A stretch of DNA of 26,837 bases from a virus, in IMG/VR virus record IMGVR_UViG_3300021962_004920, positions 1 through 26,837 of that record; one strand, written 5' to 3'. Below, one piece after another: positions 6,580 to 23,485 of the stretch (the first letter of the stretch is position 1; every line of letters starts with the position of its first letter). The notes below the pieces were generated by a model that was given only the letters and a program-made list of their open reading frames with translations, was not told the origin of the DNA and did not search any database. The position numbers were made by a program, and so were the translations under genes.

Positions 6580-6833
6580 TTGAATATAAGTTAGATCCTA
6601 TTACTTGGTTTAGCGAGAGAGAACTAACATATACTCCTAAACATTTTGTCATAACATCACATCACTGTACAGAAGAATCCAAACAATGGGTATTAGATAA
6701 ACTTAATGGTAGGTTTAGTGTAACATATCCTACATTAAGTAATAATAACAATTTAATTGAACTGCTTACCCCTAGTTGTATAGCGTTTGAAGATCCGCAA
6801 GAAGCAATATTTTATGAATTAAAATGGTCATAA
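6576..6833 (+). CDS. 85-residue protein of unknown function
   Basis: Joined to the previous gene by an ATGA overlap. Contains ITSHHCTEESKQWVLDKLNGRF followed by an asparagine-rich loop (NNNN) and a C-terminal IAFEDPQEAIFYELKW segment that resembles a small alpha/beta fold ending in a strand. No motif of known function. It is followed by 74 bases without a gene, holding a strong ribosome site for the next one. Confidence 0.65.
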   Translation: MIEYKLDPITWFSERELTYTPKHFVITSHHCTEESKQWVLDKLNGRFSVTYPTLSNNNNLIELLTPSCIAFEDPQEAIFYELKWS

Positions 6834-6907
6834 ATGGGTATATGGAAATTTTGTAGAGAACAAATTTCTTATTAAATAACTTTAGCATATTACAAGGAGA
6901 ACATAAT

Positions 6908-7624
6908 ATGAGTTTTACAAGACACGTAGGGAAACACGGGGACAGAAAAGTAGCTGTAATTTTCCGAGAAGTACCAGGCGAGCCTCATATGTGCTTGGTA
7001 ACATATACCGAAACAATTAATAAAAATATACATGATTCATTAATTCGTTGCATTGAGAGTGACATTGGTCAAAATAGTGAAAATTTAGCTGATGCATTAA
7101 ACAGAAGCTACACACAAGATGGCAGACCAATACTACAAGTTTTACATATTGAAGGTCAATTAAAGAAAGTCAATACAGAAATGATTGTAATGACACCTGC
7201 ACCAAACACACGTATTAAGTTAAATGAACTTAATAAAATTTTAGATGAAATGAAATTAGGTGAAGATGCAGTCAAACGTATGGCTGAATTGGATCAAAGT
7301 CGTGGATTACAAGATCCGGCTGATGTAGCACGTAGAATGCGTGGCCCTCAAGGTAATCAACCACCAGTAGTAGCACCCTCAGGTGATGCATTAGGTGACG
7401 CTTCATTAGCTAAACAACGGTTAGAACAAGCACAAAAAATGGAACGTGAAGCTAAAGGATTATTAGCAGAAGCACAACGTTTAACAGAAGAAGCACAATC
7501 ATTAGATCCTTCATTAGCTCCTAAACCAGCTAAGGTATCTAAAGCTAAAAAAGCCGTGGTTGTTGCTGAAGTAGCTACACCTGCAAAAAAGAAAACTACA
7601 AAAAAAGTAACTAATGTCGCCTGA
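6908..7624 (+). CDS. 238-residue phage protein with coiled coil and lysine/alanine-rich tail
   Basis: The globular N-terminal part (1-115) contains KVAVIFREVPGEPHMCLVTY and ends in ILDEMKLGEDAVKRMAELD. A Pro/Gly linker follows, then a charged coiled coil at about 168-200 and a tail rich in Lys and Ala (205-238) resembling histone-H1-like tails. The N-terminal block resembles an uncharacterised protein of cyanophage-type T4 relatives. The tail suggests contact with nucleic acid or an acidic partner. The start has AAGGAG at about 6895, much stronger than the preceding coupled genes, and TTAAATA (6872-6878) may be a late-type promoter variant. An 11-base overlap joins it to the next gene. Confidence 0.75.
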   Translation: MSFTRHVGKHGDRKVAVIFREVPGEPHMCLVTYTETINKNIHDSLIRCIESDIGQNSENLADALNRSYTQDGRPILQVLHIEGQLKKVNTEMIVMTPAPNTRIKLNELNKILDEMKLGEDAVKRMAELDQSRGLQDPADVARRMRGPQGNQPPVVAPSGDALGDASLAKQRLEQAQKMEREAKGLLAEAQRLTEEAQSLDPSLAPKPAKVSKAKKAVVVAEVATPAKKKTTKKVTNVA

Positions 7625-7910
7625 TTTTATCGATAAATGGGAACACATCCTTGAAGATGTTGAGAAAAACAAAATACCAGTTGAATTTATTAAGAAATTA
7701 ATTATTAAACTAGAAGGTAAGAAGCAACAAACGATTAATATTCAGAAGTTACTTCAACAAGGATTGGATCCAGATCAAGTAGAAGATGCGGTAAGCAGAA
7801 AACTACATGAACTAGAAGATTTAATAGTTAGTGTAGAATTTGTACTTAACGTACAAAGTATTGCTGAAACAGTACAACCTGAAACAGATAGACTTTTAGG
7901 GAAACTTTAA
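7614..7910 (+). CDS. 98-residue helical protein of unknown function
   Basis: Starts inside the end of the 238-residue gene. All-helical and charged: WEHILEDVEKNKIPVEFIKK, then a Gln-rich segment (QQTINIQKLLQQGLDPDQVE) and a C-terminal ETDRLLGKL. It seems to be a conserved partner of the upstream gene in T4-like marine phages, but I know no function. It is followed directly by a terminator, so it is the last gene of the early-type unit starting at P2. Confidence 0.72.
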   Translation: MSPDFIDKWEHILEDVEKNKIPVEFIKKLIIKLEGKKQQTINIQKLLQQGLDPDQVEDAVSRKLHELEDLIVSVEFVLNVQSIAETVQPETDRLLGKL

Positions 7911-7918
7911 CTATTTAA

Positions 7919-7943
7919 AAAAGCCCTGATCATCGGGGCTTTT
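7919..7943 (+). terminator. Rho-independent terminator closing the AAA+/VWA unit
   Basis: AAAAGCCC (7919-7926) pairs with GGGCTTTT (7936-7943), with an additional T-G pair possible inside. The ending T's complete an intrinsic terminator. The A-rich 5' side may also let it act on opposing transcripts. Confidence 0.88.
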
Positions 7944-7953
7944 CTTATTAACA

Positions 7954-7962
7954 TGTTACAAT
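7954..7962 (+). promoter_or_regulatory. Extended -10 promoter for thymidylate synthase
   Basis: TGTTACAAT is an extended -10 element (TGn plus TACAAT at 7957-7962). No TTGACA is present: at 17-bp spacing the -35 position falls in the terminator arm. The predicted start is near 7968-7970, which is the ATG, and there is no Shine-Dalgarno sequence. Confidence 0.6.
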
Positions 7963-7967
7963 AATTT

Positions 7968-8867
7968 ATGAAACAATATTTAGATTTACTACAAGATATT
8001 TTAGATAACGGAGAGATTAAAGATGACAGAACTGGTATTGGCACTCATAGTGTGTTTGGACGTCATATTCGCTTTGATTTGCGTCGGGGCTTTCCCGCAG
8101 TCACTACTAAGAAACTTGCTTGGAAAGCTTGCGTTGGTGAGCTTCTCTGGTTCATTGAAGGATCTAGTGATGAGCGTAGATTGGCAGAACTTACCCACGG
8201 TAGTAGCGAAGGAAAGGTTACTATCTGGACGCCAAACGCAGAGGCATCGTATTGGAAACCAAAAGCGAAATTCGAAGGCGATCTTGGCCGCGTCTATGGT
8301 GTACAGTGGAGACACTGGAATAAGTATCGCACAGAGAAAGACATGGGTGCGGCACACAAAGGTGGCACACGCCTCGCAGTTGACAAGATTGAAGTCGACC
8401 AATTGGCAAATCTCATTAAAGGATTAACTGAAGATCCTAATGGGCGCAGGCATATATTAAGTGCCTGGAACGTGAGCGAGTTAGACGAAATGGCATTGCC
8501 CCCTTGTCACGTTATGAGTCAATTCTATGTCAACAAAAATAAAGAACTATCTTGCCATATGTATCAAAGATCAGTGGATGTTTTTTTAGGCCTCCCCTTC
8601 AATATTTCTAGTTACGCATTACTTACACATCTATTGGCACATCACTGTAATCTAAAAGTAGGTGAACTTGTAATCAGCACAGGTGATACACATATTTACA
8701 AAGACCACATTGAACAAGTCAAAGAACAATTAACACGTGAACCTTATCCATTGCCTACATTGATGTTAAATGCTTCAAAGACAAACATTTTTGAGATAAC
8801 AATGGCAGATATACATTTGGAGAACTATCAAAGTGATGGCCCTATCAAAGCAACAATGGCAGTCTAA
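7968..8867 (+). CDS. thyA: Thymidylate synthase (ThyA type)
   Basis: 299 residues; converts dUMP and methylene-tetrahydrofolate to dTMP and dihydrofolate, feeding phage DNA synthesis. Visible signatures: DDRTGIGT (R21), the phosphate-binding arginine pair R160-R161 in GRRHILSAWN, the nucleophile C180 in LPPCH, and YQRSVDVFLGLPFNI. E. coli ThyA is about 264 residues; the extra length is mainly an insert after RVYGVQWRHW (about residues 117-140). The equivalent T4 gene is td. All key residues are present, so it should be active. The first two thirds are richer in G+C than the last third. It appears to start its own transcript with no leader. Confidence 0.97.
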   Translation: MKQYLDLLQDILDNGEIKDDRTGIGTHSVFGRHIRFDLRRGFPAVTTKKLAWKACVGELLWFIEGSSDERRLAELTHGSSEGKVTIWTPNAEASYWKPKAKFEGDLGRVYGVQWRHWNKYRTEKDMGAAHKGGTRLAVDKIEVDQLANLIKGLTEDPNGRRHILSAWNVSELDEMALPPCHVMSQFYVNKNKELSCHMYQRSVDVFLGLPFNISSYALLTHLLAHHCNLKVGELVISTGDTHIYKDHIEQVKEQLTREPYPLPTLMLNASKTNIFEITMADIHLENYQSDGPIKATMAV

Positions 8868-9168
8868 AGACGAATTTACTAGACCTAAGTATCAGGTACA
8901 AGTGTCTGATACCGGGGAAGAATCAGTATCTATTACTCAAGTAGTTCATACTATTAGAATGGGTGATGTTGAAGATCCTGACTTATTTGTAGCACAACCT
9001 ATATATGAGTGGCAACAAACAGAAGCTGGTAAGTGGATAATGGAAAACTCTAATCCTGCACCTAGTTGGCATCGTAACAATGATCTATACGATTACAGTT
9101 ATGTATATCATATTAGAGCATATCTAACACACAAACAATTAACATTTTGGAAATTAAAATATGAGTAG
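8836..9168 (+). CDS. 110-residue protein of unknown function
   Basis: Starts at the ATG at 8836, 32 bases inside thyA; a GTG immediately before it is less likely. Sequence highlights are YQVQVSDTGEESVSITQVVH, EWQQTEAGKWIMEN and a C-terminal aromatic region (YDYSYVYHIRAYL). Such W/Y-rich short proteins occur in T4-like phages without assigned role. It overlaps the following sugar-enzyme gene by 8 bases, tying it to that cassette. Function unknown. Confidence 0.7.
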   Translation: MALSKQQWQSKDEFTRPKYQVQVSDTGEESVSITQVVHTIRMGDVEDPDLFVAQPIYEWQQTEAGKWIMENSNPAPSWHRNNDLYDYSYVYHIRAYLTHKQLTFWKLKYE

Positions 9169-10129
9169 TATACTAGTTACAGGTGGATTAGGACTTATAG
9201 GACATAACGTAGTAGATAGATTACAACGTATGGGGCACCGTGTTGCTATTACCGATATACGAACTAACTATGGTATCATCCCACAAGATGAAATTGACTA
9301 TCTAATGACAGAACGGTTGAAGAAAATTCAACCCGGCAGTATTCATGCTATTGATATTTCTAGTGAAAGTATTGATTGGTTATTTGGTCGATACAAGTTT
9401 GATATTGTAATTCATATGGCTAGCTTTCCAAGACAAAAAGTTGTTAATGCTAATCCAACTATGGGAGCAAAAACAATGATGGAAGGACTATTGAATTTGT
9501 GTGAAGTTAGTAAGAAACATAAAATAAAGAAGTTTGTTTATATCAGTAGTTCAATGGTATATGGTGATTTCACAGATGATGTAACAGAAGATTATAACTG
9601 TAAACCACAAGGTCAATATGGTATTATGAAATTAGCCGGAGAACGATTGGTTGAAGATTATAGCCGCCGTAAATGCTTTAGTCATACTATCATTCGTCCT
9701 AGTGCTGTGTATGGTGAATTAGATGTTGAAGATAGAGTTATTGCTAAGTTTATGTTAACAGCTATGCGTGGTGGAACATTAAATGTTAATGGTGCAAATG
9801 AAACATTAGACTTTACGTATGTTGAAGATGCAGCTGATGGTATTGTTGCTGCCTCATTAAGTGATAACACAGAAAACAAGACATATAATATTACTAAGAG
9901 TCACAGTCGTACATTGTTAGAAGCCGCACAACTTTCATTAAAATTAGCTGGCGGTGGGACATTAGTAGTTAAAGATAAAGATGTTGATTTCCCAAGTCGT
10001 GGTGCATTGAATATCGATGCGGCACGTAGAGATTTTGGATACGATCCTAAAGTAGATGTAGAAGAAGGATTTCAAAAATATTATGATTGGCTTAGCACAT
10101 CAAGTTACTGGCAGGATAAAGTAAAATGA
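9161..10129 (+). CDS. Extended short-chain dehydrogenase, nucleotide-sugar epimerase/dehydratase family
   Basis: 322 residues. The Rossmann signature TGGLGLIG (7-14) binds NAD(P). The active-site set is S130/S131 in YISSSMVYG and the YxxxK pair Y153/K157 in QYGIMK. A hallmark RPSAVYGE lies at about 179-186 and the C-terminal half is substrate-specific. The closest class is UDP-glucose 4-epimerase/dTDP-sugar dehydratase; I cannot decide between epimerase, dehydratase and reductase. Overlaps on both sides (8 bases upstream, ATGA downstream) place it with an aminotransferase and a radical SAM enzyme, consistent with making an amino sugar in the infected cell. Confidence 0.9.
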   Translation: MSSILVTGGLGLIGHNVVDRLQRMGHRVAITDIRTNYGIIPQDEIDYLMTERLKKIQPGSIHAIDISSESIDWLFGRYKFDIVIHMASFPRQKVVNANPTMGAKTMMEGLLNLCEVSKKHKIKKFVYISSSMVYGDFTDDVTEDYNCKPQGQYGIMKLAGERLVEDYSRRKCFSHTIIRPSAVYGELDVEDRVIAKFMLTAMRGGTLNVNGANETLDFTYVEDAADGIVAASLSDNTENKTYNITKSHSRTLLEAAQLSLKLAGGGTLVVKDKDVDFPSRGALNIDAARRDFGYDPKVDVEEGFQKYYDWLSTSSYWQDKVK

Positions 10130-10338
10130 ATGCATTAGAAACTGCATTGAAGGTGCACGATTGGACTTTAGATGGATATAAATCCAGAGTCAATATAGAC
10201 AAGTTGATGAAAGAAAATACGGAACAATCAAATGCGTTATGGGAACAATATTGTCCGTGGTCTGTTACTAACGGCGGCTATATAGAATGGACAAAAAATG
10301 CAAATCCCTCACTTCGGTCTAAAAAGACAGTACAGTAA
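10126..10338 (+). CDS. 70-residue protein of unknown function embedded in the sugar cassette
   Basis: ATGA overlap with the SDR gene, and its last 41 bases overlap the aminotransferase in another frame. The protein is mixed charged, with helical N-terminal part (MNALETALKVHDWTLDGYKS) and LWEQYCPWSVTNGGYIEW near the C-terminus. No family recognised. A small partner or chaperone of the cassette is possible. Since a radical SAM protein is encoded nearby, a peptide substrate was considered but the sequence has no typical leader/core division. Confidence 0.6.
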   Translation: MNALETALKVHDWTLDGYKSRVNIDKLMKENTEQSNALWEQYCPWSVTNGGYIEWTKNANPSLRSKKTVQ

Positions 10339-11356
10339 TTTAAGAGATGAATTACTAGATGCCACAGACCGTGCTCTTAAAGACGGACAGTTAGTTGGTG
10401 GTCATTATACACGGTCATTTGAAGAATGGCTTAAACACCGCACTAAAACAAAATATGCTATAACTGTACATAGTGGTACACAAGCATTAGAGATTATTGC
10501 TCGTTGGAAAAAGATTAAACATAGTAATACTATGGAGGGCAATCCTATAATTCGTATTCCTAACTTAACTTATCCTGCTACCTTAAATGCCTTTCTGACA
10601 GCTGGATGGGATGTTGAATTAGCTGATACTGATAAGAATGGTGTTATTCAACTTGAGACAGGTAGAAGCGGTATATATGATTGTGTAATGGGCTTTGCCG
10701 GCCGTAAGCCATGGCCTAATGCTAGTTATTCAACTGCGTATGGTGTAATAGTTGACGGAGCACAACATTGGTTAGCATGTGAAGGCGATATAGGTAGTGG
10801 TATGTCAATTAGTTTTGATCCCACAAAGAATTTACCTAGTTCAGGTAACGGTGGTGCAATTGTAACTAATGACGAAAAGTTATATCTATATGCGTCAAGT
10901 TATAGAGATAATAATAAACCTTATTTTTATGATGTAGGTACTAATAGTAAAATGAGCGAACAAGATTGTGCTCAAATATTAGTCAGAGCAAATTATATAG
11001 ATGAGTGGCAAAAGCGTAGAAGTGTTATAGCAAAATATTGGTGTGATAAATTCAAAGAATTGCCATTAACTTGTTTATCTGATACAAAAGAACCTCATGC
11101 TCATCAAAAGTTTGTAATGTACCTAGCCGATCGTAATAGTTTACATACACATTTATTGTCTGACGGAATTGATAGTAAGATTCATTATGAGTATGTATTG
11201 GGTGATTTACCAATTGGTAAGGATTTACCTAAACCTGATTTGTTAAGTAATAGCGTTTTGTTATCCAGGGGAGTATTAAGTTTACCTATGTATCCTGAAT
11301 TGACTGACCAAGAAGTAGAATATATTGCAAGTAAGGTTATTAATTTCTATAAATAG
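10298..11356 (+). CDS. DegT/DnrJ/EryC1-family PLP aminotransferase (sugar aminotransferase)
   Basis: 352 residues. Begins in family style with IPHFGLKRQYSNLRDEL. Cofactor contacts are visible: HSGTQAL (59-64 region), VDGAQHW (D153, Q156) and the PLP-binding lysine K177 in SFDPTKNLP, followed by GNGGAIVTND. These enzymes move an amino group from glutamate to a keto-sugar nucleotide. The upstream SDR could supply the keto sugar. The start at 10298 lies 41 bases inside the preceding gene; the match of the N-terminus to the family supports it. The length is close to normal (about 370). The exact perfect match to the T4 late core at its end (11348-11355) is probably the Tyr-Lys-stop codons. Confidence 0.9.
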   Translation: MQIPHFGLKRQYSNLRDELLDATDRALKDGQLVGGHYTRSFEEWLKHRTKTKYAITVHSGTQALEIIARWKKIKHSNTMEGNPIIRIPNLTYPATLNAFLTAGWDVELADTDKNGVIQLETGRSGIYDCVMGFAGRKPWPNASYSTAYGVIVDGAQHWLACEGDIGSGMSISFDPTKNLPSSGNGGAIVTNDEKLYLYASSYRDNNKPYFYDVGTNSKMSEQDCAQILVRANYIDEWQKRRSVIAKYWCDKFKELPLTCLSDTKEPHAHQKFVMYLADRNSLHTHLLSDGIDSKIHYEYVLGDLPIGKDLPKPDLLSNSVLLSRGVLSLPMYPELTDQEVEYIASKVINFYK

Positions 11357-12343
11357 ATGATGAAAATATTTCCAATCAAAGTAGAAAAAGCAACCCAAGT
11401 AGATTATAAATTCATTGAATGGAAAATACATAATGTGTGTAACCATAATTGTAGTTTTTGTGGTAGTCAACATAAAGACGGAAGTCAACGATGGTTTAGC
11501 TTAGAAAAATATAAAGAATATACTGATAAATTAGTTGAAGCCTGCGGAGATAGTCCATTTTGGATACAAATTACAGGTGGTGAACCTACACTATATCCCG
11601 ATCTTATTCCTTTGTTAGCATATATGAAGTCTAAAGGGGCAATGATAAGTATGATATCAAATGGTTCACGGACTATCAGGTGGTGGAAAGAATTACAAGA
11701 AGAAAATATAATAGATTATTTGTTTTTAACATACCATAGTGAACAAACTGATAATTATCAACATATTGAAGAAGTTATAAATTTATTTCATAATCAACCC
11801 ACTGAAGTAATATGTTTGCTCACGCATGTATATGACACGTTAGATAAAGCATTTGAAGCACAAAAATATTTACTTGAAAATACCGGAGCAATTATAACAC
11901 TTAAGGCAATGATGATAGGAAATCAGGATATATATTCAAAATATACAACTGAAGAAATAACTAAATTGAAGTCTGAAAACTGGTTACCTGGAAAAAATAG
12001 AAATACTAAAGTAAAATCTTTAATAGACACCAAATGTCAAATAAATCATACCTTAAAAATAACATATAATAACGGACTTTCTTTTAATATTGATCCGCAG
12101 ATGTTGATGAAACAACAAAAAAACAAATTTTTAGGTTGGGATTGTAATATAGGATCATTTACTATGAGAATTGACCATGACGTTATATATCGAGGAGTAT
12201 GCGAACAGGGAGAAAAACGTAGTCTATATGATACCATATCATTTATTGATAACTATATACCCTGTAAAATTGAACAATGTTTTTGCGGAACTGATATGAT
12301 AGCCACCAAACTACTTCCTGAAATTAAGTATCCCCTGGCATAA
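11357..12343 (+). CDS. Radical SAM enzyme with C-terminal cysteine-rich (SPASM/twitch-like) region
   Basis: 328 residues. CNHNCSFC (C28, C32, C35) is the CX3CX2C [4Fe-4S] motif, followed by GGEP at 74-77 for SAM binding. The C-terminal part has five more cysteines (C263, C282, C303, C308, C310) in the pattern GWDC...YRGVC...CKIEQCFC, suggestive of an auxiliary iron-sulfur cluster as in SPASM or twitch domains. Such enzymes catalyse radical reactions on sugars, peptides or nucleosides. It directly abuts the aminotransferase (ATGATG after the stop), arguing for a sugar substrate; the comparable sugar pathway uses a radical SAM deaminase (DesII type). The start may be either ATG at 11357 or 11360. 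Substrate unknown. Confidence 0.88.
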   Translation: MMKIFPIKVEKATQVDYKFIEWKIHNVCNHNCSFCGSQHKDGSQRWFSLEKYKEYTDKLVEACGDSPFWIQITGGEPTLYPDLIPLLAYMKSKGAMISMISNGSRTIRWWKELQEENIIDYLFLTYHSEQTDNYQHIEEVINLFHNQPTEVICLLTHVYDTLDKAFEAQKYLLENTGAIITLKAMMIGNQDIYSKYTTEEITKLKSENWLPGKNRNTKVKSLIDTKCQINHTLKITYNNGLSFNIDPQMLMKQQKNKFLGWDCNIGSFTMRIDHDVIYRGVCEQGEKRSLYDTISFIDNYIPCKIEQCFCGTDMIATKLLPEIKYPLA

Positions 12344-13073: not shown

Positions 13074-13329
13074 TAGCATATTATTAGCATTTTGTTTGTT
13101 ATTGACAGGTTGTGCAACAGTAGACAACTATCCAGTATACGTAGAAGCACAGAAGTCATTAAGTAGAGATGCTACTGTAGCTGAAGCCGCTAGAATAGCC
13201 GCCTTAACAGAGATGGTTAAGAGTTCAGACAATGAAGTAAAAATTCAGGCAATCAAAGCTTTGCAAGAAATCCAACGCAGTAAACGTCAAGTTATTATTC
13301 AACAACCCAAAGGTTGGCTAGGTAACTGA
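13054..13329 (+). CDS. Second small lipoprotein, overlapping the o-spanin-like gene
   Basis: 91 residues from the ATG at 13054 (20-base overlap). The signal sequence ends LLAFCLLLTGC with lipobox cysteine C20, followed by a helical, charged mature part ending in QVIIQQPKGWLGN. The reading frame extends back to ATGs at 13036 and 13015. The 13015 start has AAAGG 4 bases upstream but gives a signal peptide n-region of more than 20 residues; 13036 adds a basic MHRRKF. I prefer 13054 or 13036. No family recognised beyond lipoprotein; a second o-spanin-like or superinfection-related role is possible, from position only. Confidence 0.7.
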   Translation: MIVLQNNSILLAFCLLLTGCATVDNYPVYVEAQKSLSRDATVAEAARIAALTEMVKSSDNEVKIQAIKALQEIQRSKRQVIIQQPKGWLGN

Positions 13330-13335
13330 TAAATA
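13329..13335 (+). promoter_or_regulatory. ATAAATA late-promoter-like element
   Basis: GATAAATACTA at 13328-13338, about 21 bases upstream of the ATG at 13357. A start point about 6 bases on leaves room for the TAGGA ribosome site, so this is the most conventional of the late-type elements. It is upstream of a virion gene, as expected for late expression. Confidence 0.65.
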
Positions 13336-13356: not shown

Positions 13357-14205
13357 ATGACGCAGGAAATTATTGATACAGGTAGCGTACCAAACGACGG
13401 TAGTGGTGATCCATTACGTGAAGCCTTTAATAAAATTAATAACAACTTTGCTAATCTGTTTACGTTAACCGGAAGTAATACTGAATTAGTTGAAATAGTA
13501 AATCCATTTAATGAGACTACTGAATCTTCTGTTGGTAATACAAATACGCTTAACATTGGTAATGTTTATATTACTAATACATTTGATAGCAAATCAAGTC
13601 TTACTATCACTCCTACTAAGCCATTAAGTGTTCCTACTCCACTAGAGTTATCAACCGGACCATACGGTGAACAAGAATATATTAATATTGGTGCAACACC
13701 AAATGATGGTAATGGTGACCCATTACGTGTAGCATTTAATAAGATTAATAATAATTTCAGTAATTTATTTCTTACTGCTACTACTATATCTACGGCATAT
13801 ACTTTGGGAATTACATCAAATCAAGTTATATTTGAAATTCCCGCATCACAATTTTATCAGGGACAATTTCAAATTCGTTCAAGTGATCCGGGAACTCCCG
13901 ACATGCAGGATATTACACTTAGTTCATCTATCACTAATAATTTAGCCGGCGTTAGATTCAGTGGTCATTCAACTTTGTTTCAGGGAAATGCAATTTGTCG
14001 TTATGACATGGATGTAGTAGGTAGTAATGTTAGAGTATTAATTAATCCTCTAGTAAATACTGTATTAGAGCATTTTATTTCAGCAGTAATCACTTATCCA
14101 AACGTAGTCCCCCCAACCGGACTTGAGTTAGCGTTAGACGGATATGCAAATAATTATCTAATGGGTACTGAAACTAATTTAATATTGACAACGGAAACAG
14201 AATGA
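13357..14205 (+). CDS. Virion structural protein with duplicated N-terminal adhesion-type motif
   Basis: 282 residues. A motif of about 31 residues is present twice, at 5-35 and 108-138: IxxGxxPNDGxGDPLR, then AFNKINNNFxNLF. This motif is common in phage tail and baseplate fibre proteins and is thought to mediate attachment to the virion. The remainder is beta-rich with Thr/Ser/Gly and no coiled coil, membrane segment or signal peptide. A baseplate or short fibre component is likely. Preceded by a late-type element and TAGGA. Overlaps the next gene by ATGA. The two copies suggest two attachment points or an internal duplication. Confidence 0.75.
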   Translation: MTQEIIDTGSVPNDGSGDPLREAFNKINNNFANLFTLTGSNTELVEIVNPFNETTESSVGNTNTLNIGNVYITNTFDSKSSLTITPTKPLSVPTPLELSTGPYGEQEYINIGATPNDGNGDPLRVAFNKINNNFSNLFLTATTISTAYTLGITSNQVIFEIPASQFYQGQFQIRSSDPGTPDMQDITLSSSITNNLAGVRFSGHSTLFQGNAICRYDMDVVGSNVRVLINPLVNTVLEHFISAVITYPNVVPPTGLELALDGYANNYLMGTETNLILTTETE

Positions 14206-14606
14206 GAGCCAAAGAATTCATTACTGAAACAGCATTGAGTAAAGTACACGATGGATTAGATTTAGCATCTATGGCTCTTCCTAACACCTATGTTATTCCA
14301 GAGTTAAAGAATAATGATTTCTATGATTTATATCGTTTTGGTGTAGCGATTGCCGCAGTAAGAGGTGAAAGCGGAGACGATAATGTACAAAATGGTTATA
14401 AGCCTGATTTTAGAGCAGAAAGTAGTTGGGGAGAACATCAAGTAGTATCCTCTGAGTTCGACAAAGACATTGGTAACACTATTGACCAAGCATTAAAGAA
14501 AGTTGGAAAATCCGGTAAGAAAATGGTAAGTAATCATAAAAGTGGTGAGATGGATGATACATTAACGCAGTCACCGATTAAAGGATTCAAAGGATATAAA
14601 AGATGA
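14202..14606 (+). CDS. Small virion-internal protein candidate with capsid-targeting-like N-terminus (copy A)
   Basis: 134 residues. N-terminus MRAKEFITETALSK resembles the T4 internal-protein leader type (MKTYQEFIAE), which targets a protein into the prohead and is removed by the gp21 protease after I/L-x-E; here ITE would be the cleavage site, but the following residue is Thr. Remainder soluble, alpha/beta, ending SPIKGFKGYKR. It is a divergent paralogue of the next gene: DLYRFGVAIAA and AESSWGEH align with its DLNRLMMAVAS and AESWVGKH. ATGA overlaps both neighbours. Internal capsid role is inferred. Confidence 0.7.
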   Translation: MRAKEFITETALSKVHDGLDLASMALPNTYVIPELKNNDFYDLYRFGVAIAAVRGESGDDNVQNGYKPDFRAESSWGEHQVVSSEFDKDIGNTIDQALKKVGKSGKKMVSNHKSGEMDDTLTQSPIKGFKGYKR

Positions 14607-14980
14607 GAGCAAATGAATTTATATCCGAAACTAAGATGGGTAAAATATCCAAACGTCAGCAACAATCTACCCGCGGGTTAAATATTTTTTCAAAAAAAAT
14701 AGATAGCTATGATAGAAATTATGATTTAAATCGTTTAATGATGGCTGTCGCAAGTAGTGATGGTATAAATCCAATTGAAATGCCTGCAGAAAGTTGGGTA
14801 GGTAAACACAATACTACGCACCCCTACACTAAAGAAGAACAAGATATGCTTAAATTAGCATATAAAGCTGCCGGTTTAGCATATGTAGATTTAAATAAAG
14901 GTGATATGGATAGTGAAGAACTATCTGATACAAATGCTCAAAGCATAGTCAAACCCTTTAAAGGTTACAAAAGAAAATAA
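14603..14980 (+). CDS. Small virion-internal protein candidate with capsid-targeting-like N-terminus (copy B)
   Basis: 125 residues, N-terminus MRANEFISETKMGKISK with a potential I-S-E cleavage site. It shares with copy A the leader, an AESW segment and a C-terminal basic tail (SIVKPFKGYKRK). The sequence TRGLNIFSKKIDSYDRNYDL and PYTKEEQDMLKLAYKAAG are features I associate with a family common in environmental T4-like phages, of unknown function. A tandem duplicate followed by divergence explains the arrangement. Basic tail fits DNA contact in the capsid. 52 bases of AT-rich DNA separate it from the methyltransferase gene. Confidence 0.7.
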   Translation: MRANEFISETKMGKISKRQQQSTRGLNIFSKKIDSYDRNYDLNRLMMAVASSDGINPIEMPAESWVGKHNTTHPYTKEEQDMLKLAYKAAGLAYVDLNKGDMDSEELSDTNAQSIVKPFKGYKRK

Positions 14981-15032
14981 TTTAAGTCATATCAATCAGA
15001 ATAAGTAATAGTATCAAATTACAGGATTCTAA

Positions 15033-15728
15033 ATGATTGATATTAACAATACGCTTGACTTACTCAAATTAAAATTTTACAACGAATGGCTTTATCAAGC
15101 CCATATATATGAAGAAGGTGATAGTCAATTTCACAAAGTATTGACAGGTCAAGTACTTGAAAAATATATTGATCCATTAAATATTCCAAAAACTGCTAAA
15201 ATCTTAGATTTGGGATGCGGTCCTGGTTATTTCTTAGATGAAATGAAAACACGTGAATATACTGATGTAACAGGAGTTACTCTAAGTCCTGGTGATATTA
15301 AAATCTGTCAGGATAAAGGTCATACTATCAAAACATATGATTTAAGTTTCTTGCCACAAAAAGACGGATATTTTGATGAAAGTGTAGATTTCATTTTCTT
15401 ACGTCATGCGTTAGAACATAGTCCATATCCTATCTTTAGCTTGATGGAATATAATCGTATTTTAAAACAGGGTGGCAAAATTTACATTGAAGTTCCTGCA
15501 CCCGATGGTCAACGTAAACATGAGTACAACTTAAATCATTATAGTATTTTGGGTGAACAACAATTAGCCGCATTACTAGAACGTACTGGATTTACCATCA
15601 ATAAATTTGATAACTTTGAATTTGATTTAAATGCACCCGATCCAAATGACCCTGAGAAAAAGATAGAAATGAAAGAAAAATACTACTGTATAGTTGCTAC
15701 TAAAACTAGACCATTAGATATTAAATAA
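15033..15728 (+). CDS. Class I SAM-dependent methyltransferase
   Basis: 231 residues. Motif I ILDLGCGPGYF (57-67, core GCGPG), a second SAM contact in VTGVTLSP (79-86), DFIFLRHALEH (119-129) and motif LKQGGKIYIEVPAP (144-157) define a Methyltransf_11/23-like small-molecule or protein methyltransferase. No DNA-methylase (D/N)PPY motif is present, so DNA adenine or cytosine methylation is unlikely; sugar, quinone or protein methylation is more probable. A ribosome site AGGA precedes the ATG. It lies between virion genes, away from the sugar cassette, so its partner is unclear. A terminator follows 5 bases after the stop. Confidence 0.88.
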   Translation: MIDINNTLDLLKLKFYNEWLYQAHIYEEGDSQFHKVLTGQVLEKYIDPLNIPKTAKILDLGCGPGYFLDEMKTREYTDVTGVTLSPGDIKICQDKGHTIKTYDLSFLPQKDGYFDESVDFIFLRHALEHSPYPIFSLMEYNRILKQGGKIYIEVPAPDGQRKHEYNLNHYSILGEQQLAALLERTGFTINKFDNFEFDLNAPDPNDPEKKIEMKEKYYCIVATKTRPLDIK

Positions 15729-15731
15729 ACG

Positions 15732-15738
15732 ATAAATA
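15732..15738 (+). promoter_or_regulatory. ATAAATA late-promoter-like element inside a terminator stem
   Basis: GATAAATACT at 15731-15740. The -10-like core overlaps the 5' arm of the terminator (15734-15744). A start point about 6 bases downstream would fall in the hairpin loop or its edge, so a late transcript could not form the full hairpin. Confidence 0.6.
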
Positions 15739-15763
15739 CTCACTAACAAGTGAGTATTTTTTT
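15734..15763 (+). terminator. Rho-independent terminator directly before the 15764 start codon
   Basis: 11-bp stem (15734-15744 with 15749-15759), loop AACA, and T's at 15757-15763 running straight into the ATG at 15764. It should stop transcripts from the methyltransferase gene and block read-through into the virion gene. Confidence 0.88.
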
Positions 15764-17437
15764 ATGGCTACACCAGATCCAAGCAACGTTGCACCGTGGT
15801 ATTTACGCAACATCAATCAAGCGTTAGAACTCAATGAAACCACAGGGCAAGTATTTGTCCGTACTGGATTTGAAGGTAACATCATTATTACTGGTAATGT
15901 TACTATTCCTGGAAACGTAGACGCACATATTTCAGAGATTGGTACATCAGGTAACTTAACTGTACCTTGGATGCCAGTCAGTATTGATGGTAACAGTAGT
16001 GTTTCTATTTCAGGTGGTAATGTTAACGCCGCAGTTACAGGTACAGTAGCAGTAAGTTCTATCAATTCTAATGTCACAATTGTAGATGGTGGCGGTAGTA
16101 TCACTATTGATGGTAATGTAGGAGTTACTGGTAACGTTAATATTGGTACTATGCCGAACGTTAACGCAAACATCACAGGTGGTAATGTAACTGTTACTCA
16201 AGGAACAAGTCCATGGGTAGTATCAGGTAATGTAGGTGTAACCGGTACTGCTAATGTAGCACTTGGTGGAACAAATTTAGATGCATTTGGTCGTCTAAGA
16301 ATTAGTGAGCCATATACACTCTTTGATAGTCAAAACCGTTATATTGATGGTGAACAGTTTTCAAGTCTTACTGCAACTGGTGGTAACGTAGTTTATGTAG
16401 CAAACGAAAGTTCGTTTAATCTAAATGTTAGTTCAACTAGTGGTAGTAGCGTAATAAGACAAAGCAAAACAGTTCAAGCATATCAGCCGGGTAAAAGTTT
16501 ATTGACAATGAATACATTTGCTATGGCAACACTTAAAGCAAATTTAAGACAACGAGTGGGCTACTTCACTGAAGGCAATGGTATATATTTTGAAGCTAAT
16601 GGAACATCGTTATTTCTTGTTATTCGTAGTAGCACAACCGGTGTAGTAGTTGAAGAACGTATTGCTCAAGCAAGTTGGAATGGAGATACCTTAAATGGTG
16701 CTGGCTCAAGTGGTATAACATTAGATCCAACACTAACACAAATCTTTTGGAATGATATTGAATGGTTAGGTGTAGGCAATGTAAGAGCAGGATTTGTTAT
16801 TAACGGTCAGTTCATTGTATGTCACACATTCCAACACGCTAATCAGCCTGGTAACACCACTGTCTATATGACAACTGCTACATTAAATCCTCGTTATGAA
16901 ATTACCAATACTGCCGCTACCAGTGGTAATAGCACAATGAAACAAATTTGTAGCACTGTTATTAGTGAAGGTGGATTTACACCAAGCACTAAGATTGGAT
17001 ATGTTACTAACAATACAAGTGCTACAAGAGTAAGTTCATCAAATACTGTAACTTCATTATGTTCAATAAGATTGAATCCAGCATATCCAGACGCTGTTGT
17101 TATTCCTGCTCAAATTGATTTGTTATTACTTGATGTTCGCTATGGACAGTTTCAACTTATTGAAAACGCAACTATTGCAAATGCCTCATTTAGTAATATA
17201 GCAGGATCAGTAGTTCAAAGTGCTATTCATACTGATACTATCACTAATGGAACTGTAGTTTATGCAGGCTTGAATAGTAGTCGTGATGAAGTAGAAATCG
17301 GTGAAGATATTAAGAAAAGACTACAACTGTGGCGTTATGCTAATGGAACACCAAGCACACTAACACTTGCAGTTGCATATACTGCAACTAATGCAGATTT
17401 ATTGTATAAGTTTGGGTGGGAAGAACTTACAAACTAA
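15764..17437 (+). CDS. Virion structural protein, glycine/asparagine beta-repeat N-terminus
   Basis: 557 residues. Residues about 36-165 carry many GNV/GNVT-type short beta repeats (VTGNVNIGTM, VSGNVGVTG), likely a beta-solenoid or collagen-like stalk. LDAFGRLRI (172-180), followed by SEPYTLFDSQ, begins a conserved-looking globular domain found in several phage tail or capsid decoration proteins. No membrane segment, signal or coiled coil. A fibre or capsid accessory role is likely. The start codon directly follows a terminator T-run, with no good Shine-Dalgarno sequence, and the gene is probably transcribed from the late-type element at 15732. See the terminator entry. Confidence 0.75.
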   Translation: MATPDPSNVAPWYLRNINQALELNETTGQVFVRTGFEGNIIITGNVTIPGNVDAHISEIGTSGNLTVPWMPVSIDGNSSVSISGGNVNAAVTGTVAVSSINSNVTIVDGGGSITIDGNVGVTGNVNIGTMPNVNANITGGNVTVTQGTSPWVVSGNVGVTGTANVALGGTNLDAFGRLRISEPYTLFDSQNRYIDGEQFSSLTATGGNVVYVANESSFNLNVSSTSGSSVIRQSKTVQAYQPGKSLLTMNTFAMATLKANLRQRVGYFTEGNGIYFEANGTSLFLVIRSSTTGVVVEERIAQASWNGDTLNGAGSSGITLDPTLTQIFWNDIEWLGVGNVRAGFVINGQFIVCHTFQHANQPGNTTVYMTTATLNPRYEITNTAATSGNSTMKQICSTVISEGGFTPSTKIGYVTNNTSATRVSSSNTVTSLCSIRLNPAYPDAVVIPAQIDLLLLDVRYGQFQLIENATIANASFSNIAGSVVQSAIHTDTITNGTVVYAGLNSSRDEVEIGEDIKKRLQLWRYANGTPSTLTLAVAYTATNADLLYKFGWEELTN

Positions 17438-17448
17438 GTTTATCCAAA

Positions 17449-17455
17449 CTAAATA
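17449..17455 (+). promoter_or_regulatory. CTAAATA late-promoter-like element before terL
   Basis: CTAAATACTCTCT sits 6 bases before the terL ATG. The predicted start falls at or next to the AUG, so terL mRNA from here would be leaderless; no ribosome site is visible. It differs from ATAAATA only in the first base. Confidence 0.5.
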
Positions 17456-17461
17456 CTCTCT

Positions 17462-19009
17462 ATGAGTAATGCACCTTCACTAGTAAAGAATCCTTATACT
17501 AAAACAGTTTTCAAAACTGATAAAGAACTACAGGATTTTATCAAATGCTGTGATCCAGATACAGGTTATCTATACTTTATGGATAACTTCTTCTACATAC
17601 AACACCCTACAAAGGGCAGTATGGTATATCATCCATGGCCCTATCAAAAACGATTGATTGAAACATATCATAACTATCGTTATTCAATCAGCTTGATGCC
17701 ACGACAGTCAGGCAAATCAACTTCAGCGGCTGGTTATCTACTTTGGTATGCCATGTTTATTCCAGACAGTACTATCTTAGTTGCGGCACACAAGTATACA
17801 GGTGCTCAGGAGATTATGCAACGTATACGTTACGCATATGAGAACTGTCCCGATTACATTAAAGCAGGGGTAACAACATACAATAAAGGCTCATTAGACT
17901 TTGAAAACGGATCTCGCATTGTTTCAGCAACAACTACTGAAAACACTGGTCGTGGTATGTCTATTACACTATTATACTTAGATGAGTTTGCATTCGTTCG
18001 ACCAAGTATTGCCAAAGAATTCTGGACAGCTATTACTCCTACATTGTCAACTGGTGGTAAAGCAATTATCACAAGCACACCAAACAGTGATGAGGATCAA
18101 GTCGCTTATATTTGGAAAGGTGCTAACAAGACTGAAGATGATTTTGGCAACACTACTGAACTAGGTATAAACGGGTTTAGAGCATATAGAGCGCATTGGA
18201 GTGAACAACCCGGACGAGATCAACAGTGGGCTGATGAAATAAAAGCACAGCTTGGTGAGGATCGTTTCAACCGAGAGATTGGTTGCGAGTTCATTATTGC
18301 TGATGAGACATTGATTAATCCAAATACATTGATAGCTATGGAAGGTATAGAACCTATAAGTCGTATAGGACAAGTTCGGTGGTATGATAAACCAAAGAAA
18401 GGTAATATCTATTGTGTAGGATTGGATCCAAGTCTTGGTACAGGAGGAGATCCTGCTGCCATACAAATCTTTGAAGCAAACACCACTACACAAGTTGGTG
18501 AATGGAAACACAATAAAACTGATATTCCTAGCCAAATCAAACTATTAGCACAAATTAGCAAATATATAGCTGAATGTACTAACGAACCTAATAATATCTA
18601 TTATAGTATTGAATGCAATGGCATAGGAGAAGCCGCTATCATATCATTAAATGAATATGGGGAGAGTAATATCCCGGGTATTTTTATTAGCGAAGCAGGT
18701 AAAGGTCGTAGAGGCTTTAACACAACTAACAAGAGTAAATTAGCAAGCTGTGCAAAGTTCAAAACATTGGTAGAAAGTAAGAAAATGACTGTAAATAGTC
18801 GTAGTCTTATTAGTGAAATGAAAGCATTTGTAGCCCATGGTGGTAGTTATGCCGCTAAAATCGGGGATACAGACGATTTGATTATGGCTAGCCTGTTAGT
18901 GACACGCATGTTACAGCATTTAAGTGACTATCACGTTAATTTAGAGACACAGATACGTGACCACGATGAATACATAGCTCCGTTGCCCTTCTTTGCGGTC
19001 ATAAGCTAA
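17462..19009 (+). CDS. terL: Terminase large subunit (gp17-like)
   Basis: 515 residues; the ATPase/nuclease motor that cuts and packages the DNA. Walker A LMPRQSGKST (78-87), Walker B LLYLDEFAF (170-178, D174/E175) and coupling motif TSTP (204-207) are in the N-terminal half. The C-terminal RNase H-like nuclease has acidic residues D322 in GLDPSLG, E384 in SIECNG and D471/D472 in GDTDDLIMA, matching T4 gp17 D401, E458 and D542. T4 gp17 is about 610 residues, so this one is shorter, mainly at the termini. There is no ribosome site. A gp16-like small subunit is not recognised here. The gene is followed by large virion proteins rather than the T4 order. Confidence 0.96.
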   Translation: MSNAPSLVKNPYTKTVFKTDKELQDFIKCCDPDTGYLYFMDNFFYIQHPTKGSMVYHPWPYQKRLIETYHNYRYSISLMPRQSGKSTSAAGYLLWYAMFIPDSTILVAAHKYTGAQEIMQRIRYAYENCPDYIKAGVTTYNKGSLDFENGSRIVSATTTENTGRGMSITLLYLDEFAFVRPSIAKEFWTAITPTLSTGGKAIITSTPNSDEDQVAYIWKGANKTEDDFGNTTELGINGFRAYRAHWSEQPGRDQQWADEIKAQLGEDRFNREIGCEFIIADETLINPNTLIAMEGIEPISRIGQVRWYDKPKKGNIYCVGLDPSLGTGGDPAAIQIFEANTTTQVGEWKHNKTDIPSQIKLLAQISKYIAECTNEPNNIYYSIECNGIGEAAIISLNEYGESNIPGIFISEAGKGRRGFNTTNKSKLASCAKFKTLVESKKMTVNSRSLISEMKAFVAHGGSYAAKIGDTDDLIMASLLVTRMLQHLSDYHVNLETQIRDHDEYIAPLPFFAVIS

Positions 19010-19019
19010 GACAAAAAAG

Positions 19020-19026
19020 ATAAATA
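19020..19026 (+). promoter_or_regulatory. ATAAATA late-promoter-like element before the 19031 gene
   Basis: GATAAATACAAT lies 4 bases from the ATG at 19031. As a promoter it would start transcription at or beyond the first codon, so it would serve this gene only if leaderless. Its position just upstream of the ORF fits the pattern seen at 12340, 13329, 15732 and 17449. Confidence 0.4.
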
Positions 19027-19030
19027 CAAT

Positions 19031-20683
19031 ATGGCTAAAAATCAAGAATCAATCAACCGCTCATTATTTGAGCTATTACGTAGCAGAGGTTATGCCCCTA
19101 CATTATTAGATACTTCTGGTAAGGAAATTCCAGTCCCAGAAGAAGCGGAAGTCTTTCAGTTTAAATTTACTAAAGACGGGGAAGAATACGGTACAGTAAC
19201 AGCATCAATTGATGGATTACATAAGTTAATAATTTACTTTGGTGATGACGTTGCTAATAGTGAAAAAGAAAACAACGGTGGTGACGATTCATGGTACAAA
19301 TTATTGAATCATTTAAAACGTTTCTCACAGCAACACCAATTAAGTTTTGAAGTTAAAAACAGAGACCATTTAAAATATGATATGGCAAAAAGGGAACATA
19401 TGAAAAAGCAAGAAAGAATATCAGAAGGCTACTATCCAATGGGTAAGAAAGCTAGTTATAATGACAATATTCCAACAGTTAAAATTGTTATTGAACATAG
19501 TCGTACAATTGAAGAAGGCGAACAGCGTTATCGTAATGTAAACCGTATCTTCTTAGAGAATACACAAGGTGAAAGAATTCTTGCTCCTACGACAAAGCCG
19601 GGTGTTGCTCAGATATATGCCCGTCATTTAGCTGAAGGTGGTTTACCACACGATGACCGTTGGAATCATATTGTAGGTCTATGTGAAGAATATAACAAGA
19701 TGGGTGCTTTTGTTCGTGCCACACGTAATAATCAATTCAATGAATCAGCACAACAATTAGTTAATGAAGGTATTAACCACTATCAAAGTTTAAAAGAATC
19801 ATTAAGCAAGATGCGTGGTGCACGTGGTTACAATGCGTACTTTGAATCATACACTCCTCCATTAATGGAAGATGAGACAGAAGAAAACAACTTGAATGAG
19901 TTGTTTGTACAAGAGACATTAGACCCACGTATTGAAAGTGTAATGCCAATATTAAGTAAGTTACATAAAAAAGTAGCTGAGATGAAAGAAGTTAATGAAT
20001 TAAGCGAGTGGGCTGATAACTTAATTGACGAAGGTGCAGCCGTAGATGCATACATGGCAGGAAAGAGTCCGGCACTTGCTCATTTTGCTGACCAATTAGA
20101 CAAAGAAGTTGATGAAGGTATGTTTGATAAAGTTAAAGATGTTGTTAAAACAGGTGCCAAAGCACTTGACAAATTTGTTACCGGTGGCGACAAAGAAGAT
20201 TTACTAAAAGACTTGAAAGATAAAGCAGGTGTTCGTAATCCAGAAAATGGTAAACCAAGCATGGCATACAGTGATGTGGAGAAGCGTACTGATGAAGTTG
20301 ACATGGGTCAAGCTGACAGTTCATTAAGAAATGAACCAAAGCAAAACAATGATAAAATGGATCACTTTACTGCGTTGGGTAAGGCATCAAAGAAAATGGG
20401 ACATAACCATTTTATGGATGTACCTGATGACAAACTTGAAGCACTTAAAGCAATGGTTAAAAAATTCAGATCCGGCGAAGAAGTTGATGAAAGCGCACTA
20501 CAAGCGTCCTTCGGTATTAAGAAGTACGGTGAACCTGGCATGCTAGCACTACAAGACGCTGGTCGTAAAGGTGCTAGTGAGAAAACAAAGCAAAACATTC
20601 GTGCTGAGTTTAGCGATAAAGAAAAACCTGTAACAGAAGGTCAAGAAGAACTTGATTTTATTAAACATTTAATTCGTAAATAA
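19031..20683 (+). CDS. Large virion/prohead-associated protein with conserved C-terminal motif (unknown function)
   Basis: 550 residues, starting MAKNQESINRSLFELLRSRG. The N-terminal ~90 residues form an alpha/beta unit (VFQFKFTKDGEEYGTVTASI). The middle is helical. The sequence contains ISEGYY (I-S-E-G) and several other I/L-x-E-(G/A/S) sites like the T4 prohead protease consensus. The C-terminal region has KKYGEPGMLALQDAGRKGAS and ends in VTEGQEELDFIKHLIRK, a tail type shared with the next protein (SVAEGSEDLARILHIAGIKK). I associate this family with virion proteins of environmental T4-like phages, without known function. No membrane helix. The C-terminal similarity suggests both proteins share a partner or protease. 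Confidence 0.75.
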   Translation: MAKNQESINRSLFELLRSRGYAPTLLDTSGKEIPVPEEAEVFQFKFTKDGEEYGTVTASIDGLHKLIIYFGDDVANSEKENNGGDDSWYKLLNHLKRFSQQHQLSFEVKNRDHLKYDMAKREHMKKQERISEGYYPMGKKASYNDNIPTVKIVIEHSRTIEEGEQRYRNVNRIFLENTQGERILAPTTKPGVAQIYARHLAEGGLPHDDRWNHIVGLCEEYNKMGAFVRATRNNQFNESAQQLVNEGINHYQSLKESLSKMRGARGYNAYFESYTPPLMEDETEENNLNELFVQETLDPRIESVMPILSKLHKKVAEMKEVNELSEWADNLIDEGAAVDAYMAGKSPALAHFADQLDKEVDEGMFDKVKDVVKTGAKALDKFVTGGDKEDLLKDLKDKAGVRNPENGKPSMAYSDVEKRTDEVDMGQADSSLRNEPKQNNDKMDHFTALGKASKKMGHNHFMDVPDDKLEALKAMVKKFRSGEEVDESALQASFGIKKYGEPGMLALQDAGRKGASEKTKQNIRAEFSDKEKPVTEGQEELDFIKHLIRK

Positions 20684-20695
20684 GAGAAACACGAT

Positions 20696-23485
20696 ATGTT
20701 TAAAGAAAATTACACAAAACCTAAAGTAATGATTACTGAAACCCGCACCTATAAGTTGTGGGAAAGTGCTGGTCGTAAAATAGTTGAAGCACAATTAACA
20801 CCAGATCAAATCAAACAAATCTTTCAGTATGCACAAAACATTGAAACTGCAGGTGGTACTAATCGTACAATGATTGGTAAAGGCAAAGATGCCGCATCTG
20901 CTGTAGGTCAAGCTTGGGAAGAATTAAAAACTAAAGCACAGAATTCAAAACCTATTGATGGGTTTGAGAAAAAATATGATGCTATAGCACAACGATTAAA
21001 ACAAGCAACTGGTGGTGATCAGGGTGCAATGAAGTATGTACAGAAATACCGTGACTTTGCTAAGAAACATCCTATAGCACAAGGTGTAATATATGCCGCA
21101 CTTATTGCCGCAATTGGTCTAAGTGGTGCAGGCGTAGGTGGCGCGGCAGCATTAGGCTTATTTAAAATGACGGATAAGTTATTGCAAGGTGATAAATTTA
21201 CTAGCGCCGCTTATAGTGGTGCTAAGACTGGCGCATTGGCATATGGTGCAAGTCAACTTGCTCAGTATTTTCAAAATCCCAAAGCTCCTTTACCCGACAA
21301 TATTGATAGTGTCAAATTACCCAACGGTACTGACTACGTAGTTAAACAAGGTGACACACTAAGCCAAATTGCTCAAAAGTATGGAGTTAGTGTTGAAGAA
21401 TTAATGAAAGCCAATAATGGTGCAACAACGGTAACTCCTACTGGTCAGTCTATGACATGGAACGATCCTAATGCATTATCTGATGTTAACCCAATGGGTG
21501 ATGCAGTACCATCAGGTACTGGAGTGCAACAAGATTATGATGTAAAGACAGCACCTAAAGTTTCTAATCCAGATAGAATAAATGTTGGTCAAAAATTAAA
21601 TATACCCGGTGCAACTGGTTCAAGTCCATATCAAGGTGGTGTAGGCACCGCTGCCGATACATGGAACAAGATTGGCGCCGGCAAATATCCGTATGATCAG
21701 ATATCAGCTAATCAGGCTGCTAAATATGGAATTGATACCGGTGGTTTAGGTGATGCTAGTAAAGCTGGCGGTAAAATGGCATCTGATGCAGCAGGTTTGA
21801 GCCAAGCAGACATTAACCAAATGCGTAATCAGAATTTATTTAGAATGCAAGATCAAGCTGATGCCGCATACTATGCAGATAAACCTGACGATTTTGGAAT
21901 AAATCCGCGTAACAATGACGCAGTAGGAACTGGGATGCCAGGGTCAGCAAATACTACAGGACCTGCAGGAGCAAGTTATAATCCTGAGTATTTGAATAAA
22001 GTAATCAATGGTGAGATTTCTCGCCCTAAGATTAGCGTAGAAAAAGCACAAGCCGCATTAGATTGGCAATCACAGAATGGTGGACAAGTTAATACTAACG
22101 CACCTAGTGTAATGAACGGCGATGGCCCTGGAGGATTTAGTAAAGAATATCTTAAAAGGGCAGCAGACCCTGATCGTTTAGGTAGATATATGATTAGTCC
22201 TGAGAAAGCACAACAGCTATTGGGACAATTAAAAGAAAGTGTTCAACTATCTGAATCACAAATCTTTTTATTGATAGGTAAAATTGTTGAAAGACAAAGA
22301 CGTATTGATGAAGGTATCATGGATACTCTCAAAGGTGCAGCCGGCAAAACAGCAAATTGGGCTAGAACAAAAGGTCAAAATCTAACAACTAAAATTACTG
22401 CTGATAAGTTATTACAAGCATGGAAGAGAGCTGATAGTCCTACAGATAGTGATGCTGTTGCCAAAGTTATGATTGGTGCCGGTGTACCGCAAGAGACTGT
22501 TACTAATCTAATGAAGAACTTTGTACAAGGCCCGTCAGCTGGAACAAATACAAATGTTTGGCAAGGTGCTGATAGAAACATACCTGCTATTCAAAGAAAG
22601 CAACAAGGTCAATCATTTGCCGCTACACCTAACGCTTCAGGTCAAACTCTCCCACCGCAAGGTCAGACTCCCGAGCCTGCCCCTCAAAGTCAGACTCCCA
22701 CACCGCAAGGTCAGATTAACACTCCTGCACAAGATAATTTACCTTTAAGGTATTATGGTGCTGGCAATAAGTCCCCTACTGATTTTTGGGGTAGGAAGAG
22801 ACCAGTAAAACCAACTATGCAGTCTCAGCAACGACAAGCATCCTTAGACGCAGCCAATGCGGCAAAAATGACACCTACACCAACAACACCAACAACACCC
22901 GCACCACAAGGAACTACATATGATCCTTCTAAAGCCGCGGCAAATAGATTATCTAAAGGTCAAGCCGCCCAACAACAAGCACTAAAACAAATGGCTGCTA
23001 CAAGGCAAACAAATTCCCCCGTATCTCAACAATATTCAGCTATTAAAGCAGCCGCAGCCGCGGCAATGGCTAAACCGGGCTTTCAACAAACAGCGGCGGA
23101 TAAACTTGCTATTAAACAGGCAGCTGCCCTTGATAATACTATAACAATGCCTAGGAATACAACTCCAACTACAAAAGTAGCAGAAGGTGAATTTGCGGGT
23201 AAATATGCTACAGGTATAGCGGGTCAATGGCGCAACAAAGGTCCTAAGGCAAACAAGCCAGCAACGATTGGTGATCTAGTCGGTGAAGGGGAAGAGACTG
23301 ATATTACTAAGAAAAGAGTAGATAATCCTCCTATTAAAGGCACGCCAAACAAGGCCAAGACCGGATATTATCCTACTCAAAAACCTCCTGTTAAAAAATT
23401 AGATACACCTTATACTAAAGAATCAGTAGCTGAAGGTTCAGAGGATTTAGCAAGAATACTACATATTGCTGGAATTAAAAAATAA
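20696..23485 (+). CDS. Large LysM-containing virion protein with membrane-like segment
   Basis: 929 residues, the longest gene here. Order: N-terminal segment containing MITETRTYKLWESAGRK and IVEAQLTPDQ; helical region 60-125; hydrophobic, glycine/alanine-rich stretch 127-158 (AQGVIYAALIAAIGL); LysM half at 214-241 (YVVKQGDTLSQIAQKYGVS), a ~50-residue insertion, and the LysM end at 291-304 (RINVGQKLNIPG); then low-complexity Pro/Gln/Ala/Thr-rich region about 630-800, and a C-terminal SVAEGSEDLARILHIAGIKK. LysM binds peptidoglycan; with a membrane segment and possible protease sites (I-V-E-A near residue 29-32) this looks like an injected or prohead-internal protein acting at the cell envelope. 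Preceded by a weak GAGA-type ribosome site. Confidence 0.75.
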   Translation: MFKENYTKPKVMITETRTYKLWESAGRKIVEAQLTPDQIKQIFQYAQNIETAGGTNRTMIGKGKDAASAVGQAWEELKTKAQNSKPIDGFEKKYDAIAQRLKQATGGDQGAMKYVQKYRDFAKKHPIAQGVIYAALIAAIGLSGAGVGGAAALGLFKMTDKLLQGDKFTSAAYSGAKTGALAYGASQLAQYFQNPKAPLPDNIDSVKLPNGTDYVVKQGDTLSQIAQKYGVSVEELMKANNGATTVTPTGQSMTWNDPNALSDVNPMGDAVPSGTGVQQDYDVKTAPKVSNPDRINVGQKLNIPGATGSSPYQGGVGTAADTWNKIGAGKYPYDQISANQAAKYGIDTGGLGDASKAGGKMASDAAGLSQADINQMRNQNLFRMQDQADAAYYADKPDDFGINPRNNDAVGTGMPGSANTTGPAGASYNPEYLNKVINGEISRPKISVEKAQAALDWQSQNGGQVNTNAPSVMNGDGPGGFSKEYLKRAADPDRLGRYMISPEKAQQLLGQLKESVQLSESQIFLLIGKIVERQRRIDEGIMDTLKGAAGKTANWARTKGQNLTTKITADKLLQAWKRADSPTDSDAVAKVMIGAGVPQETVTNLMKNFVQGPSAGTNTNVWQGADRNIPAIQRKQQGQSFAATPNASGQTLPPQGQTPEPAPQSQTPTPQGQINTPAQDNLPLRYYGAGNKSPTDFWGRKRPVKPTMQSQQRQASLDAANAAKMTPTPTTPTTPAPQGTTYDPSKAAANRLSKGQAAQQQALKQMAATRQTNSPVSQQYSAIKAAAAAAMAKPGFQQTAADKLAIKQAAALDNTITMPRNTTPTTKVAEGEFAGKYATGIAGQWRNKGPKANKPATIGDLVGEGEETDITKKRVDNPPIKGTPNKAKTGYYPTQKPPVKKLDTPYTKESVAEGSEDLARILHIAGIKK

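Follow-up and report, generated by a model that had tools for sequence, protein, structure and literature searches.

Proteins that a phage injects are the first to face host defences; outside T4 and a few other model phages they are rarely recognisable by sequence. In T4, ten leader residues are enough for capsid targeting, gp21 cleaves after the motif L/I-x-E, and Alt and the internal proteins are ejected (PMC9026906). The T4 internal proteins Ip1-3 have the leader alone in common and are without homology to one another, and each inhibits different GmrSD variants (PMC12373910). Virion-packaged ARTs are a known strategy of myoviruses (PMC9503650). In phiKZ and SPN3US, head proteins are cut after Glu by gp21-related proteases of the gp175/gp245 type and are ejected (PMC9026906); the motif there is S/A-x-E, the phage lineage is another one, and that text describes no short shared leader. 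Short-leader capsid targeting is known from T4, and what appears to be new here is the leader variant MRAxEFIxE and the A/B protein family that bears it. Neither was described in the texts searched, a body of literature that most subscription papers and all bioRxiv preprints fall outside.

The virus record analysed here (the window) spans 26.8 kb (26,837 nucleotides) and is a fragment within which gp21 and gp23 do not lie. Its TerL (17462-19009) is closest to those of jumbo T4-related phages such as Phosso, PA5oct and GAP32 (43-50% identity). Upstream, on the plus strand, a gene with a T4 gp9/10-like N-terminal domain (13357-14205; PF07880, 6e-10) is followed by the genes for protein A (14202-14606, 134 aa) and protein B (14603-14980, 125 aa), both overlaps being ATGA (14202-14205 and 14603-14606). 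A and B thus lie between the gp9/10-like gene and a methyltransferase-like gene, with TerL 2.5 kb downstream. A late-promoter-like GATAAATA (13328-13335, plus strand; a consensus match only) precedes the operon formed by the gp9/10-like gene, A and B, and TAAATA was not clearly enriched before leader genes (25/98 against 258/1225 before other ORFs).

Several other features of the window were recorded. The protein encoded at 4-2358 (784 aa) contains fibronectin type III domains as well as repeated FGYG...SNTGVV, and is probably a tail or surface adhesin. ORFs that by eye are epimerase-like, aminotransferase-like and radical-SAM-like (9161-12343) adjoin spanin-like and tail genes and suggest sugar modification. 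Two large proteins of 550 and 929 aa follow TerL (19031-20683 and 20696-23485), of which the latter contains a LysM domain; across relatives the TerL-following gene ranges from 550 to 1359 aa, E-G sites are numerous, and the two are possibly processed internal proteins. An ORF at 25170-25679 is GIY-YIG-like by eye and likely a homing endonuclease, with no match in Pfam; ORFs that look similar were found near gp21/gp23 in relatives. Downstream of TerL, a 531-aa ORF (23502-25097, plus strand) starts MKISSLLRE, and its start reads MKI(S/A/I/N)(S/A)LL(R/N/G)E in relatives. With lower confidence, it is possibly a third leader protein with a second leader type.

A preliminary description of this DNA had noted that both proteins begin MRA(K/N)EFI(T/S)ET, end in a basic GYKR tail and are paralogous, and these points hold. 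Protein A (MRAKEFITET...SPIKGFKGYKR) is a putative internal head protein with the leader MRAKEFITE (14202-14228) and the conserved tail SPIKGFKGYKR (14571-14603); B (MRANEFISET...KPFKGYKRK) has the leader MRANEFISE (14603-14629) and the tail KPFKGYKRK (14951-14977). In both leaders gp21 cleavage is predicted after Glu9. Basicity common to the two proteins is limited to the C-terminal tail: mature A (pI 6.3; family median net charge -2) is close to neutral, whereas mature B is basic (pI 9.3). By profile-profile comparison A and B are distant paralogs over their full length (E 7e-22), with most of the signal coming from leader and tail. Once these are removed the cores match weakly (score 24; highest shuffled score 18.9), but intermediate sequences, e.g. 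L333, match both cores (E 7e-5 and 3e-4). In alignments of the two families M-R-(A)-x-E-F and Glu9 are followed by a middle of moderate conservation, and S-(P/T/I)-x-K-x-F-K-G-Y-K terminates most members. Searches of A and B against Pfam and PHROGs gave nothing usable, with no enzyme domain and no tail-protein family matched, and PDB sequence searches gave matches at E>0.1 only. AlphaFold models of A and B, a step proposed in the preliminary description, were poor (mean pLDDT 58 and 55; pTM 0.45 and 0.38).

The preliminary description had also likened the leader to the T4 sequence MKTYQEFIAE, which was quoted correctly and begins T4 ipII and ipIII. As in IPI-III, the leader of A and B is short and N-terminal and has a hydrophobic-x-Glu end, and EFIxE is common to both (T4 positions 6, 7, 8 and 10; functional positions taken from PMC9026906). 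Compared with T4 it is one residue shorter, MRA replaces MKTY, and Tyr4 is not kept. Further likenesses to IPI-III are that unrelated mature parts share the leader, that the small genes are adjacent and that a gp21 protease occurs in the same genomes. Unlike IPI-III, A and B are universal in their clade and carry a conserved FKGYKR tail, and the mature parts have no homology to IPI, IPII or IPIII by PHROG, Pfam or tblastn searches. The T4 internal proteins themselves lack mutual homology (PMC12373910), so its absence here is not class-defining.

With one mismatch allowed, the leader pattern matches the window only at the starts of A and B; shuffles of the window gave a mean of 0.05 matches, and two matches in 0/100. 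A DNA-level scan of IMG/VR for MRAxEFIxE found at least 120 stretches and, among the matches listed, 129/146 were at ORF starts. When F and I were exchanged as a control, 23 stretches were found, 6/23 at ORF starts and several resembling leader variants, and a permuted control pattern found 17 stretches altogether. In whole IMG/VR records, selected because they matched the leader or its swapped variant, a looser leader pattern gave 43 matches against 0 for the reversed pattern; it was absent from Phosso, PA5oct, GAP32, Vibrio 2.275.O and T4. That only the A/B pair uses the leader was rejected, as the looser pattern and the IMG/VR scan reveal other users. A search for the leader across the phage group, also proposed at the outset, found it in common to the A/B superfamily and at least 51 other, unrelated mature clusters (blastp single linkage at 1e-5). 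Islands of leader genes resembling cargo loci were seen in G024 (14030-21726, five within 8 kb) and G020 (5892-10696), and one in G001, the record of L149 (61465-71142), has several genes with leader-like starts.

Judged from the alignments, the boundary of leader conservation is Glu9, at a site of the T4 gp21 type (hydrophobic-x-E). At positions 10-14 no residue exceeds 20% when one representative is taken per mature cluster. Residues 7-9 in aligned A and B are mostly I-x-E and sometimes V/L/M-x-E, and one B has a shifted L-x-E. Of the 19 MRAxE(F/I) starts without Glu9, 10 carry (L/I/V)xE elsewhere in residues 7-16 (P=7e-6), where 2 are expected from the 10.6% background of other ORFs, although the ORF set behind this position-9 statistic was enriched by the leader-pattern scan and partly selected via the pattern itself. 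An example is MRAREFVSAVLSE, after which TTDAKISKRQQ follows the predicted site. Similarly, MRAQEFIIE followed by GAYQGGLRKWFK in one contig is matched by MRAEEFDE followed by AYQGGLRKWFK in another.

For these same phages the gp23 cleavage site is predicted, by alignment, to be hydrophobic-x-E with (S/N)(S/A)xxGxTxxGNIA after it; the main text of the phAPEC6 paper is silent on gp23 cleavage in virions of this lineage. Several tiny leader proteins (L157:5051, L283, L293 and L395:8201) read MRAxEF(I/V)xE and then xxSxGxTxxG(S/N)(I/V)A, like the segment after the gp23 site; this coincidence, found unsought, agrees with Glu9 as the predicted cut site. Moreover, gp21 (PF03420) was found in every tested leader-bearing record of at least 150 kb and in one of 116 kb, a weak test since T4-like phages have gp21 as a rule, and gp23 was present wherever searched among leader-bearing large sister records.

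The cargo behind the leader includes domains above the Pfam cut-off (ADPrib_exo_Tox, 9.5e-13; GNAT, 1.3e-6; LRV, 3.5e-13) and matches below it to ART-PolyVal, Kinase-PolyVal and ParB_N. In the comparison of genes with and without the leader, the counts for ADPrib_exo_Tox and ART-PolyVal were no match and one match, too few to be informative. Some leader cargo, with ADPrib_exo_Tox or weak ART-PolyVal or Kinase-PolyVal matches, resembles T4 Alt, packaged ARTs and polyvalent proteins (PMC9503650), unlike A and B themselves, which match no enzyme domain. A further likeness is to the T4-GC119 proteins of cyanophages (such as the S-B68 'structural protein' and syn9 gp114), whose modules occur singly behind MRAxEFIxE-type leaders in the jumbo phages and which contain the internal leader-like stretches KTFSDFIEE and LTFQQFQE. 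One module stands alone, in another cyanophage, and its start, MKTFKQFQE followed by GW, is intermediate between the T4 and MRAxEFIxE leaders. The T4-GC119 proteins differ in being fused and multi-module, in lacking the A/B core and, in those examined, in N-termini without an MRAxEFIxE leader. Fusions of this kind are L495, L496, L497 and L500, from the cyanophages S-B68, syn9, S-SSM5 and Syn19.

Scans of IMG/VR yielded, among the matches listed, 321 A-like and 207 B-like stretches. No relatives of A or B were found among isolate phages (50,697 records), even at E<=1, or at E<=10 with a consensus, and no B relatives were found in bacterial or archaeal genomes. When contigs were picked on TerL only and had 5 kb or more of sequence upstream, A and B accompanied TerL in synteny in 22/22, and two had an extra B. 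G001 differs in having B before A and another gene upstream.

The alleles at these loci vary in a distinctive way. In 342 genome pairs with TerL at 93-99% identity, which are non-independent observations, mature A was below 50% identity in 189 and at or above 70% in 139, whilst mature B was below 60% in 133 and at or above 80% in 130. All four combinations of similar and diverged A and B occurred, with leader and tail fixed, and the adjacent methyltransferase was never below 60%. Local DNA identity shifts at the A/B junction: against G005 the A core is at 47% and B at 77-88%, and against G003 A is at 76-89% and the B core at 50%. A and B alleles reassort independently. The strong divergence outside leader and tail that had been described at the outset is confirmed, and independent allele replacement accounts for part of it. 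We consider that this independent swapping, which is reminiscent of the T4 internal proteins Ip1-3 and their distinct GmrSD targets (PMC12373910), argues for a variable target, which would explain how loci that are always present can nevertheless carry diverged alleles swapped independently.

Taken together, we consider it quite probable that A and B are internal head proteins of a jumbo phage related to T4, targeted to the capsid, cleaved by gp21 and probably injected. Their packaging is likely, whilst we would give their action against host defences about an even chance. The preliminary reading of the leader as a capsid-targeting signal is indirectly but strongly supported by its modularity, its gp21-type end, its coexistence with gp21 and gp23 and its effector-type cargo; homology to IPI-III was not found and mature A is not basic. 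Also against capsid import are the leader's differences from that of T4 and its absence from every related isolate checked.

Their invariable presence also fits a structural role, and A and B might be prohead core or DNA-organising parts. They would then resemble T4 gp67/gp68 or the phiKZ inner body and, after import by the leader and cleavage, would serve assembly or packaging and not be injected against defences. Their synteny with TerL (22/22), the fixed basic tail of both, the basic mature B and the small size are what such parts could show. However, an assembly part would not usually swap strongly diverged alleles independently while TerL stays nearly constant, basic character is lacking in mature A, and ART and acetyltransferase domains bear the same leader, so we regard this explanation as unlikely. 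The pair lies upstream of TerL and far from gp20-gp21-gp23, which does not match the location of gp67/gp68 in the portal-gp21 interval; in relatives that interval holds another small protein, MKLFEMF....

Translational coupling to the gp9/10-like gene, seen in the ATGA overlaps, could mark A and B as accessory baseplate or tail-fibre proteins, and fibre genes vary among relatives too. This is very improbable given the B-A order and different upstream neighbour in G001, the leader on many genes elsewhere in the genomes and the lack of tail-protein family matches. Scarcely credible is that the shared N-terminus is another type of motif, e.g. for translation start or partner binding, and not a capsid tag. 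The Arg2 codon is AGA in 132/135, so conservation could be partly at the RNA level, but Ala3, Glu5, Phe6, Ile7 and Glu9 show synonymous codon variation and the leader is therefore conserved at the protein level. Moreover, conservation stops at the protease motif, which tends to shift when Glu9 is absent, and the gp23-like segment comes after the predicted site.

Under the favoured reading as internal head proteins, the operon with the gp9/10-like baseplate or fibre gene would express A and B, probably late. The nine-residue MRAxEF(I/V)xE would bring them into the prohead core, as T4 and the modularity of the leader suggest, where a gp21-type prohead protease would cut after Glu9 of the hydrophobic-x-Glu motif to leave a mature A of 125 aa and B of 116 aa. 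Both would remain in the DNA-filled head, exit with the DNA and meet a variable host target, most likely a defence system.

More broadly, we lean towards MRAxEF(I/V)xE being a general capsid-import tag for exchangeable effectors, with A and B as an invariant core cassette of reassorting alleles directed at a variable host target. If so, the injected repertoire of uncultivated T4-like jumbo phages would be readable from sequence through the tag alone, and nine residues would be enough to convert anonymous ORFs of uncultured jumbo phages into testable candidates for virion-packaged effectors. At the A/B loci, the naturally occurring range of reassorting alleles might indicate the defence systems that they counter.
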